From positions 66,101 to 130,100 of the forward strand of contig JANXAG010000002.1 of assembly GCA_025062375.1 (NCBI GenBank): a stretch of 64,000 nucleotides of DNA. Direction: 5' to 3'. The position numbers and the translations under genes are program-made. This document shows, piece after piece, positions 2,358-20,605 of the stretch. The stretch comes from Anaerolineae bacterium (GTDB lineage Bacteria > Chloroflexota > Anaerolineae > SpSt-600). Numbering within the stretch: the first letter of the stretch is position 1; each line of letters starts with the position of its first letter. The notes under the pieces are model-generated. The model was not told where the DNA came from and searched no databases. It saw only the letters and a list, made by a program, of their open reading frames with translations.

Positions 2358-3573
2358 TTCCAGGAACCTCCGGTATTGGGGGGTGATGGAAACGTTTCCG
2401 GCTTAAAAGAAGGGGGAATTGATGCCTCACCGTCCCCAATATCAGCCATAAAGCGAGGGAGTTTTGCCGGCGAGATGGTTTTTCCCCAATAGCCCACTGG
2501 ACAAGCTCCAGAAGGTGAATCACCGGCCGCAGGTTAGGGTCAGCCAGGCGAGCTACCGAAAACATGGCCAGGCACCCGGCGCAGTAAACACAGGTGGCCT
2601 CTGCTTTAACCCGGCGGTGATCCCGTGAAGTAGCCCTTGCTGAGGCCAGAATGGAAAAGGGGTGATAGGCTGCGAAGGGAGAAAATCCACCGCCAATGCC
2701 ACAGCAGAGCTGACTTTCCCTATTGTGGGGCGCTTCTGTCACTTCTACTCCAAGCAGATTCAGTATCTTCCTTGGAATTTCGGCGAAATCCTCTCCTAAG
2801 AGGCGAGAGTGACAGGAATCTTGCACTGTGACTTTCAGCCTGAGGGGGCGCACAGGGCCAAAATTCTCCCTTTTGAGGCCATCCAGGAGAAATTCAAAGT
2901 AATGGGAAAAGTGTATGCTGGAGAAATCAGCCCCGAACTGTGGTAGCACATTTTTAAGCATGTTGAAGCAGGCGGTGCATAGGACGTAAACGTGCTCAGC
3001 CTTTAACCTGCGGAACCATAGGGTAAGCCTGGCGGCTACCTGTTCCACCTCCTCGTAGAGCCCCATTCTGAAGAGCATTTCCCCACAGCAGTAATCTAAG
3101 CCACCTCTTATTTCTATACCCTGAAAGAGGCGGGAAAAAGTCAAATAGGGGACCATGAGAAGATTGCAGCCAGAATAGAGGAATTCTTGAATGGGTTCCG
3201 TTCTTGACCATCCAGCTAACTTCAGGCGCTCCTCTGGTGGGAGCCGGGCGACAATATCTGTGCGGAAATTAGGTCGGGAATGGGGGAGGAAATAGCGGGC
3301 GTAAAGGGGAAGGCCTCTTTCCCTGTATATTTCATGCCAGAGGTCCAGAATAAGGTTGGCGGGCCTGGCATCCTGAGGGCAAAAGGTATTGCAGGCCATG
3401 CACGAAGTGCAAACTTTGAGGATCCTGGAACTTTTCCCCTTTAAGAGCCTTTCCATCTCCCTGGCTGCCTCTTGCGGGCGAAGGCTCAAAACAGGACAGC
3501 GGTGAAAACACTCCCCGCAGAGGTTACAGCGTTCCCGAGCGAACGGTTCCCGGGTGTATTTCTTCGGATTCAT
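2344..3573 (-). CDS. (Fe-S)-binding heterodisulfide-reductase-like protein (HdrD/GlpC type, CCG domains)
   Basis: A soluble 409-residue electron-transfer protein. Two N-terminal [4Fe-4S] motifs are visible: C16, C19, C22, C26 and C55, C58, C61, C65. Two CCG cysteine-rich modules follow (DYCCGEM with CTACFN, then LCCGIGGG with CVYCAGC), as in the catalytic HdrB/HdrD subunit or GlpC. Such proteins oxidise or reduce disulfides, or pass electrons from flavoenzymes to quinone or ferredoxin. It overlaps the upstream 4Fe-4S gene by 50 bp and the downstream DUF169 gene by 14 bp. There is no flavoprotein (GlpA/LldD-like) partner in the window, so the donor is unknown. The basic C-terminal tail after the last CCG module is unusual. 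Confidence 0.8.
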   Translation of the reverse strand: MNPKKYTREPFARERCNLCGECFHRCPVLSLRPQEAAREMERLLKGKSSRILKVCTSCMACNTFCPQDARPANLILDLWHEIYRERGLPLYARYFLPHSRPNFRTDIVARLPPEERLKLAGWSRTEPIQEFLYSGCNLLMVPYLTFSRLFQGIEIRGGLDYCCGEMLFRMGLYEEVEQVAARLTLWFRRLKAEHVYVLCTACFNMLKNVLPQFGADFSSIHFSHYFEFLLDGLKRENFGPVRPLRLKVTVQDSCHSRLLGEDFAEIPRKILNLLGVEVTEAPHNRESQLCCGIGGGFSPFAAYHPFSILASARATSRDHRRVKAEATCVYCAGCLAMFSVARLADPNLRPVIHLLELVQWAIGEKPSRRQNSLALWLILGTVRHQFPLLLSRKRFHHPPIPEVPGNGGS

Positions 3574-4327
3574 AGCGCCTAACCATGGTTATAGCTTCAA
3601 CTGGGCAGACCTCAACGCATCTCCCGCAGCCGAAGCACAATCCTTTCAAATAGCTCCTATGGTTCTCAACAGCTCTCGCTCCAAATGGGCACGCTCTCAC
3701 GCATTCCCCAAAGCCTCTGCAGCGAGTTAAATCGGTTTTAGAGATATAGGGCCCCAAGATGAAAGGGTAAACCCTCTGCCCGAGTTCCCGGTTCAGGATG
3801 TAGGGGACACAACCGCAGGTGCAGCAATTACAGATAACATACTCGGTGTTTCCGTAGGTCGGGCAATGGACAAACACCATCTGCCACATCCCCAGGTTGT
3901 GACACTCGGATATAATCTCTTTGGCTTCTTCAAAGGTGATAAAGCGGTAATCTTTGGGGAAAGCTTTTGTCCAGGCTTCAACTCCCGAGCGGATTACAAT
4001 ATCAGTTTCCAGAGGATGAGAGCATGCCCTGTGGGATATACGGCAACGGCATGGCCCCACTGCTATAGGGCCATCCACTCGCTCCAGGAATTCCAGGACC
4101 TGAGGGAACGGGAGGGGTTTAGCAGTATCGGCCCAGCGCGCGAAAGGTGCAGCTAAGGTCCATCCCAGGGCAAACCGAAGGAAAGGAAGCTGTCCCAGCT
4201 TTTTCCATTTTCCTCTGAGCAAGGAAAAGCTCAAAGACAAGAGGGGAAGTTCAGCATAGCGGGCAAATAAATAGAGCAATACCCTTTCCCACAGCGCCTC
4301 TTCGCCTGCGGAATGAAAACGCGACAT
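3524..4327 (-). CDS. 4Fe-4S ferredoxin-type protein
   Basis: First gene of the minus-strand redox operon. The C-terminal 70 residues contain two ferredoxin motifs, CRGFGECVRACPFGA (first cluster with a changed spacing) and CFGCGRCVEVCPVEA. The middle carries additional cysteines (GPCRCRISHRAC and ICNCCTCGC), typical of a family of two-cluster anaerobe proteins whose central domain may hold a further metal site. The N-terminal 60 residues contain hydrophobic stretches but no clear signal peptide. ATG at 4327 follows an AAAGGAGG ribosome site. It probably supplies electrons to the HdrD-like protein encoded next; this is inferred from context. Confidence 0.75.
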   Translation of the reverse strand: MSRFHSAGEEALWERVLLYLFARYAELPLLSLSFSLLRGKWKKLGQLPFLRFALGWTLAAPFARWADTAKPLPFPQVLEFLERVDGPIAVGPCRCRISHRACSHPLETDIVIRSGVEAWTKAFPKDYRFITFEEAKEIISECHNLGMWQMVFVHCPTYGNTEYVICNCCTCGCVPYILNRELGQRVYPFILGPYISKTDLTRCRGFGECVRACPFGARAVENHRSYLKGLCFGCGRCVEVCPVEAITMVRRYESEEIHPGTVRSGTL

Positions 4328-15071: not shown

Positions 15072-16139
15072 ATGGCTGTGCTTTACATCTCTTCCGTTGA
15101 GAAATTTTCGGGCAAAAGCTCTTTTTGTTTCGGGATAGGCAAAAGGCTCAGGCAGGAGGGTCTGTCCGTAGCTTACATGAAGCCTGTAAGCACCGCAGCT
15201 CGCCAGGAAAATGGAGAGGTAGTAGACGAAGATGCTCTTTTCTTCAAACGCTATTTTCAGCTCTCTCAGCCTCTTTCGGAAATAGTCCCCATTGCTCTTA
15301 CCCCCAATGTAGTGGAGGCTATATTAACGGGGAAAATTCGGGAGGATTTTGAAGAAAAGCTCAAGAGAGCGTGCTCCGATTGCGCCAGAGGTAGGGATTT
15401 AATATTGCTGGAGGGGGCTGGGACTCTCCGGGAAGGCTATATCGCTGGCTTGTCGGCCCCAAGGGTAACCCAACTCCTTAATGCCCCGGCTCTGATGATA
15501 ATAAAGTATACCTCAGACCTGGGAGTGGTAGATGATATTCTGGCAGCTCAATCCCGCCTGGAGGATAGGCTCCTGGGGATCGTGATAAATATGGTGCCAA
15601 GACCCAGGATGCAGTATGTTGAAGAGGTTATTCGCCCATATATTGAAGCCAAAGGGGTAAAAGTGTTCGGAATTCTACCTCACGAAAGAATCCTGGCTTC
15701 TATAACAGTGAAAGAGCTGGTAGAGGTTCTGGACGGGGAAATCCTCTGTTGCCCTGATAAAACCGATGAACTTATAGAGTATGTGATGGTAGGAGCTATG
15801 AGCGTAGATTTAGCCCTTTCTTACTTCCGCCGTCGGCCCAATAAGGTAGTTATAACAGGAGGCGACAGGCCCGATATCCAGCTTGCGGCTCTGGAAACTT
15901 CCACCAAGTGCGTGGTGCTTACCGGGAATATCCGCCCAAGCCCAATTATCTTGGGCAGGGCCGAAGAAGTGGGAATACCCATGATTGTGGTCCGCCACGA
16001 TACTTTTACCAGCGTGGAGCTGGTAGAGAATTACTTTGGCCGCAGCCGCTTCTATCAGGAGAGAAAGGTGGCCCGCTTTGAGGAACTCTTGAACGAACGA
16101 TTCAACTTTTCCCTTCTGCGCTCTTCCCTCGGCTTATGA
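15072..16139 (+). CDS. Phosphotransacetylase-family regulatory protein (BioD-like P-loop + DRTGG domain)
   Basis: The 355-residue protein resembles the N-terminal, non-catalytic part of long phosphotransacetylases. A BioD-like P-loop domain (SVEKFSGKSSFCFGIGKRL; LLEGAGTLREGY) is followed by a DRTGG domain of about 110 residues ending near GDRPDIQLAALETS. The catalytic PTA_PTB domain is absent. It sits 12 bp behind the ADP-forming acyl-CoA synthetase, so it may sense nucleotide or acyl-CoA state and regulate that enzyme (inference). GGAGGAAG precedes the ATG. The stop overlaps the next gene's ATG (ATGA). Confidence 0.8.
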   Translation: MAVLYISSVEKFSGKSSFCFGIGKRLRQEGLSVAYMKPVSTAARQENGEVVDEDALFFKRYFQLSQPLSEIVPIALTPNVVEAILTGKIREDFEEKLKRACSDCARGRDLILLEGAGTLREGYIAGLSAPRVTQLLNAPALMIIKYTSDLGVVDDILAAQSRLEDRLLGIVINMVPRPRMQYVEEVIRPYIEAKGVKVFGILPHERILASITVKELVEVLDGEILCCPDKTDELIEYVMVGAMSVDLALSYFRRRPNKVVITGGDRPDIQLAALETSTKCVVLTGNIRPSPIILGRAEEVGIPMIVVRHDTFTSVELVENYFGRSRFYQERKVARFEELLNERFNFSLLRSSLGL

Positions 16140-19702: not shown

Positions 19703-19731
19703 TTGACAGTTTGCCCTCAGCGATTTATAAT
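19703..19731 (+). promoter_or_regulatory. Consensus promoter of the UGA-containing peroxiredoxin
   Basis: TTGACA (19703-19708), 17 bp, TATAAT (19726-19731): a perfect match to the sigma70 consensus and the best promoter in the window. The predicted leader before the ATG at 19904 is about 165 nt. I see no riboswitch or terminator in it. The stretch 19527-19702 holds nothing I can assign. Confidence 0.8.
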
Positions 19732-19903
19732 ACTACCAAAGTAATCTATTAACCTTCTCCGGTCACAAGCCTGGGATTGGGTTTAGAAGAGCGCCCAGCC
19801 TGAATGTCAAACCTGGGAATTTTTCGCACCTTGCAGCGAGTTGTGCCCCTGTTAGCCTGTCATGAAAAAAGCGATGGCAAGTGATAGTCTAAAGGAGGTT
19901 AAT

Positions 19904-20605
19904 ATGGCGGAACTTAAAGATAGCTGCGTCAGACCAGCGCGCGGACCAATCTTGCCGGAGGTTGAACCTTCAGTTATGCCTGAAAAAATAGCTTTAAAAG
20001 AGGAGGTCAAAATGATAGCAAGAGTTGGCCAGGAAGCCATTGACTTTGAAGCCAACGCCTACATTGAGGGCGTGGGTTTTCAGCCGGTCAAGCTTTCTGA
20101 CTATAAAGGGAAGTGGATTGTTCTTTGCTTCTATCCGGGAGACTTTACCTTTGTCTGACCAACAGAACTGGCAGCGGTCGCTGCCCGATATGAAGAGCTC
20201 AAGGCTCTCGGTGTAGAAGTGCTGGCCATAAGCACCGACAGCCGTTTCGTGCACAAGGTCTGGCAGGAACAGGAATTATCAAAAATGGTCAGCGGAGGCG
20301 TCCCATTCCCAATGCTGGAAGATCCGGGAGGGAAAATAGGCAGAGTTTACGGGGTGTACGATGAAGCTGCCGGGGTAGATATTCGCGGCCGATTCATCAT
20401 TGATCCGGACTTCGTTATTCGGGCGATGGAAGTTTTAACCCCGGAGGTGGGCCGGAATCCCGATGAATTGATAAGACAGATCAAAGCGTTCCAACATGTG
20501 CGAGCTACTGGAGAGGTAACCCCATCCGGCTGGCAGCCAGGCAAAACTACTCTTAAGCCCAGTCCAGCGCTGGTGGGTAAAGTTTGGGAGGTCTGGAAAC
20601 CATAA
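19904..20605 (+). CDS. Peroxiredoxin (AhpC/TSA family) with in-frame UGA at the catalytic position: probable selenoprotein
   Basis: One reading frame interrupted only by TGA at 20156-20158. The preceding residues are [10 protein letters not shown] and the following ones [14 protein letters not shown], so UGA replaces the peroxidatic Cys of the FTFVCPTE motif. The rest is a complete AhpC-type protein ([23 protein letters not shown]; end WEVWKP). Sec would be residue 85 from ATG 19904 (AAAGGAGG before it) or 49 from ATG 20012 (AGGAGG before it). The usual C-terminal resolving Cys (VCP) is Thr here (EVTPSGW), so a 1-Sec mechanism or a partner thiol is likely. The N-terminal extension supplies DSCVRP. 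A SECIS-like hairpin follows the UGA. SelA/B/C/D are not in the window. Confidence 0.85.
20156..20185 (+). promoter_or_regulatory. UGA recoding site with SECIS-like hairpin
   Basis: The UGA (20156-20158) is followed after exactly 11 nt by GGCAGC (20170-20175), loop GGTC (20176-20179) and GCTGCC (20180-20185). This is a perfect 6-bp stem with a GGUC loop. Bacterial SECIS elements such as that of E. coli fdhF place a short apical stem with a GGU-type loop at this same distance to bind SelB. The lower part of the stem is not well paired. Confidence 0.72.

Follow-up and report, generated by a model that had tools for sequence, protein, structure and literature searches.

A predicted selenocysteine peroxiredoxin gene (prxU) with a conserved pair of start codons in an Anaerolineae genome

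An AhpC/peroxiredoxin-type reading frame at positions 19904-20605 of a 64,000-nucleotide stretch of Anaerolineae DNA (hereafter ‘the window’) is, with a probability that we put at about 0.95, an intact gene for a selenocysteine (Sec) peroxiredoxin of the PrxU family. The frame (plus strand, as are all features of prxU given below) begins with an ATG at 19904, ends with a TAA at 20603-20605, and contains a sole in-frame stop, the TGA at 20156-20158 (codon 85 of 234), on either side of which it is open. Codon 85 coincides with the peroxidatic residue (context FTFV-U-PTEL), and the sequence, its translation, and its homologues together indicate that this UGA would be read as Sec, yielding a long form of 233 amino acids with Sec85; an N-terminal motif kept in 46 homologues supports the start at 19904. 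An earlier note on this DNA, prepared from the letters alone, had observed that the TGA falls exactly on the catalytic codon and that the frame then continues to a normal end, and both sequence and translation bear this out. Judged by the comparative evidence set out here, the frame can be considered settled as a functioning selenoprotein gene rather than a pseudogene.

Sec peroxiredoxins are an established family of bacterial selenoproteins, with 12 cases in a 2006 survey (PMC1794560), and are listed with a TxxU motif in a 2026 review (PMC13188914). The PrxU of Eubacterium (Peptoclostridium) acidaminophilum is attributed to Sohling et al. (2001) in the citing text of two articles (PMC13188914; PMC9312934). 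By sequence, the gene described here is an additional member of this family, which is already known though little studied. Its read-through product reaches 378.9 bits with the NCBIfam model NF040737 (peroxi_PrxU), passing the equivalog cut-off of 270, and misses the cut-off of the AhpC equivalog TIGR03137 (193.5 versus 272); its Pfam domains are AhpC-TSA and 1-cysPrx_C. The nearest named records, a Chloroflexota plasmid protein (66%) and P. acidaminophilum PrxU (56-57%), both have TGA at the same codon, and the same TGA is found at the same residue in 50 family sequences and in one further sequence (L041). Comparison with relatives had been proposed in the earlier note, and their orthologues do have TGA at this place: an orthologue with one TGA is present in 20 of the 59 relatives searched, making Sec peroxiredoxins widespread in this class of Chloroflexota. 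In a sample of the phylum, the PrxU cut-off is passed in 14 of 400 genomes. Other Sec members come from assemblies labelled Deltaproteobacteria, Spirochaetes, Bacillota, Pirellulales, Neomarinimicrobiota, and others, many of them metagenome bins; the view that these enzymes are confined to a few anaerobes is therefore not upheld, as members occur in many phyla.

Several family members were noted in passing. The source genome encodes a second Sec peroxiredoxin (L053, G000:C15, positions 3024-3626) that is 62% identical, has no long tail, starts with MC, possesses its own SECIS with an AGUU loop, and lies directly upstream of genes resembling cytochrome bd oxidase subunits. A Cys-containing close relative (L071, G145:C13) shares its genome with a Sec PrxU (L057), and TPACW replaces the resolving-Cys motif both in this relative and in the Sec paralogue L053. 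One PrxU copy (L062, G413:C55) has an additional in-frame TAA early in its core and is either a decayed copy or an assembly error.

Immediately 3' of the UGA, and starting 11 bases after it, lies a predicted SECIS hairpin, GGCAGC-GGUC-GCUGCC (20170-20185). The apical GU, i.e. the two middle bases of the loop, is invariant in all 50 Sec sequences. Three of the pairs, at offsets 14:29, 17:26, and 20:23, have a third codon position on both sides and are therefore not dictated by the protein sequence; they form in 45, 50, and 50 of the 50 sequences, respectively, where 27, 39, and 37 would be expected, and not one of 20000 shuffles matched the observed pairing. Among these 50 homologues, 17:26 and 20:23 pair through several pair types, and the loop-closing pair covaries between G-C, A-U, and C-G on synonymous positions, while the 68 Cys homologues show no excess pairing at 17:26 and 20:23. 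The same stem is recovered unprompted by RNAalifold. When the named structure was counted across the alignment, 96.8% of cells were paired, with a covariation score of 0.622 versus 0.197 after shuffling; slid versions of the structure all score lower, and the exchange of pairs persists after thinning to <75% identity. Support for the SECIS is comparative, the single-sequence folding z-score of the region (-0.21) being weak and uninformative. The window has 49 candidate in-frame TGAs, and a long hairpin that closes on N-GU-N' comes after that of prxU alone (seven pairs; next best, four).

The machinery for Sec incorporation, for which the earlier note had suggested a search, is present in full in the same genome (2.15 Mb in 94 contigs, 95% complete): selA (590 bits, cut-off 268), selB (356 bits, cut-off 242), selD (374 bits, cut-off 125), and, on the window's own contig, the tRNA-Sec gene selC with a UCA anticodon (74.9 bits, also called by ARAGORN). 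The selD gene (L010, G000:C19), with a TGA in frame within the motif CAGUAGK, is a selenoprotein gene too. Co-occurrence of selA with prxU is consistent with the Sec reading but a weak test of it, as selA passes its cut-off in 52 of 60 genomes anyway. Taken together, the sel genes, the TGA-bearing relatives, the PrxU cut-off, and the covarying SECIS support the Sec reading originally proposed, and we infer that Sec is inserted at this UGA in the cell. SelA would make Sec-tRNA using selenophosphate from SelD; SelB carrying Sec-tRNA would bind the hairpin just 3' of the UGA and decode the latter as Sec85; and Sec85 would attack the O-O bond of H2O2 or of an organic hydroperoxide and so become a selenenic acid, which a thiol would then reduce.

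Two other explanations of the TGA have little to recommend them. Reading as Trp or Cys through a changed genetic code or a suppressor tRNA is very improbable: we found no support for it, ordinary window genes stop at TGA (e.g. at 16139, 22890, and 24287), which argues against a changed code, the tRNA that has the UCA anticodon belongs to the Sec type, and the prxU hairpin shares its GGUC loop with that of Escherichia coli fdhF. A pseudogene or sequencing error, the catalytic codon having simply turned into a nonsense codon, would need only one base change from TGC or TGT in what is a draft of 94 contigs, but the likelihood of this is negligible given that each orthologue of the 20 relatives has one TGA, that known PrxU has it at the same codon, and that the covarying SECIS and the full Sec machinery accompany it. 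The earlier note had likewise argued against an ordinary nonsense mutation, and the TGA and SECIS kept from species to species, alongside the Sec machinery, agree with it. The TGA-bearing orthologues, the covarying SECIS, and the TGA stops elsewhere were the grounds on which pseudogene, sequencing error, and changed code were dropped as candidates.

Upstream of the gene, the sequence TTGACA-17-TATAAT (19703-19731), about 170 bases before the ATG at 19904, matches the sigma-70 consensus at 12 of 12 positions, as the ‘perfect consensus promoter’ of the earlier note implied; its function is predicted, and it is probably the promoter of prxU. An Rfam scan of the long 5' region found no riboswitch. 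Judging from translations, the upstream neighbours, on the minus strand, are thyX-like and glycosyltransferase-like genes and the downstream neighbour is a DNA ligase (ligA)-like gene; these being functionally unrelated, prxU looks like a single-gene unit. In two records (L021, CP069395.1; L022, NZ_CP007453.1), prxU has Mrp/NBP35-type or NifB/NifX-type and ATP-binding genes as neighbours, which may point to a functional link; the prxU of the window is without such neighbours.

Two start codons deserve particular attention. The Shine-Dalgarno sequence AAGGAGGT (19892-19899) precedes the ATG at 19904, and a second one, AGGAGGT (20001-20007), precedes an ATG at 20012, which is in the same frame and 36 codons downstream of the first. 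Initiation at the latter would give a short form (20012-20605) of 197 amino acids with Sec at position 49. The good ribosome sites mentioned in the earlier note are thus both present; what changes is their meaning, since they form a conserved pair that implies two protein forms and are not just good signals. An in-frame internal start is found in 46 of 46 extension-bearing homologues (ATG in 44, GTG in two), 44-50 codons before the Sec codon, and the upstream start has a Shine-Dalgarno sequence of at least five bases in 44 of the 46. Both starts are hence conserved, each with its own Shine-Dalgarno sequence, the sequence pattern of a dual-start gene.

We consider it unlikely that only the long form is made and that the internal AGGAGGT-ATG results from conservation of the peptide K/Q-E-V-x-M. 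This peptide does dictate part of the Shine-Dalgarno sequence; however, with synonymous codons redrawn from each gene's own usage (2000 shuffles), 13.9 of 46 genes would be expected to reach six bases (maximum 22), whereas 38 of 46 have at least six. Exchanges of the residue before Glu are mostly between K, Q, and E (codons xAG) and preserve the bases AG, and Glu codons just before the internal start favour GAG (52:12, versus 153:226 elsewhere; p = 8e-10). Other in-frame ATGs have a six-base Shine-Dalgarno sequence in only one of 150 cases. The internal signal also survives thinning, being present in 10 of 12 sequences at <75% identity (3.8 expected) and in seven of eight at <70% (2.3 expected); at 65%, four sequences are left and the effect is no longer significant.

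Still less probable is that only the short form is made from the ATG at 20012, the upstream reading being a by-product. The internal start with its Shine-Dalgarno sequence in the homologues would fit such a gene, as would the length of the E. acidaminophilum protein: the annotated P. acidaminophilum PrxU record is the long form of 240 residues, the published protein reportedly has 203, and the difference of 37 codons corresponds to the internal start of that gene. Against this stand the Shine-Dalgarno sequence of the upstream start in nearly all homologues and the conservation of the tail motif while its synonymous codons vary freely, which indicates that the tail is translated and selected. 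The motif, CVxPAxGP, includes Cys8 (codon at 19925-19927), and a Cys is found at this place in 46 of 46 extension-bearing Sec homologues; TGT and TGC are used about equally for it, and the Pro of the motif uses all four codons, so we take the N-terminal extension to be translated. A conserved second start with a Shine-Dalgarno sequence above codon-usage expectation implies long and short products alike, and prxU probably makes both: a 233-residue form with a flexible tail bearing Cys8 and a 197-residue form lacking it.

The tail Cys lies about 72-80 residues before Sec in all 46 extension-bearing sequences and is a candidate resolving thiol. The resolving Cys of typical 2-Cys enzymes sits in EVCPxxW. 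In the product of prxU, the usual C-terminal resolving Cys of typical 2-Cys AhpC is absent and Thr206 (codon at 20519-20521) stands in its place (GEVTPSGW versus GEVCPAKW, aligned to AhpC 1we0). Of the 49 Sec homologues readable at this site, 45 likewise lack the usual Cys and four (L075, L080, L081, and L085) retain it; nearly all Cys-type AhpC homologues have it. As to the four shorter Sec sequences, three (L038, L053, and L075) start with MC and the fourth (L076) has a Cys elsewhere, in the C-terminal tail. An AlphaFold model built on a 13-row alignment (mean pLDDT 70) sets Sec85 immediately before a helix (86-94), leaves residues 1-11 and 19-35 disordered, and does not place Cys8. Another thiol, Cys75 (LCFYP), was dropped as a special candidate, as many ordinary AhpC proteins have it too.

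Because the usual resolving Cys is Thr here, we tentatively propose that Cys8 takes over its role, with odds slightly against us: Cys8 on the tail of the long form would resolve the oxidised Sec, after which thioredoxin, the presumed reductant of PrxU, would reduce the enzyme. The short form would then have to rely on an external thiol or a long-form partner within the oligomer. The tail may instead have another job, e.g. docking, since the tail Cys coexists with the usual resolving Cys in four Sec homologues; a search of the genome with one exact degenerate pattern found the tail motif nowhere else and so gave no sign of a shared docking tag. The fuller picture of PrxU as a two-proteoform selenoenzyme is more speculative: tandem conserved starts would supply a long form with a swinging tail and its own resolving Cys, and a short 1-Sec form without it, with the ratio of the two tuning turnover or signalling in the oligomer. 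Our literature search, outside which the original 2001 PrxU paper lay, found no description of the two-start reading or of a tail Cys in place of the usual resolving Cys. The conserved start pair and the displaced resolving Cys are the points that merit a second look, and together they suggest, in terms specific enough to be tested, how a Sec peroxiredoxin may be recycled.

Three known systems frame these proposals. In E. coli fdhF (its sequence confirmed in E. coli genomes), too, the hairpin comes right after the UGA and is capped by a GGUC loop, at a position within one base of that in prxU; the stem sequences differ. SelB recognises the GGUC loop of the fdhF hairpin. Typical 2-Cys AhpC/Prx1 proteins (TIGR03137; 1we0, 1qmv) share the sequence family and active-site motif, and the secondary structure of our model fits theirs, but they have Cys where the prxU product has Sec and the resolving Cys (EVCP) where it has Thr. 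Closest is the PrxU of P. acidaminophilum, which, although from a different phylum and with FTFV-U-ATE in place of FTFV-U-PTE at its active site, is 57% identical along its full length and likewise has Sec as the peroxidatic residue, an N-terminal CxxP tail, an internal Shine-Dalgarno-ATG, a SECIS of the same shape, and no C-terminal resolving Cys.
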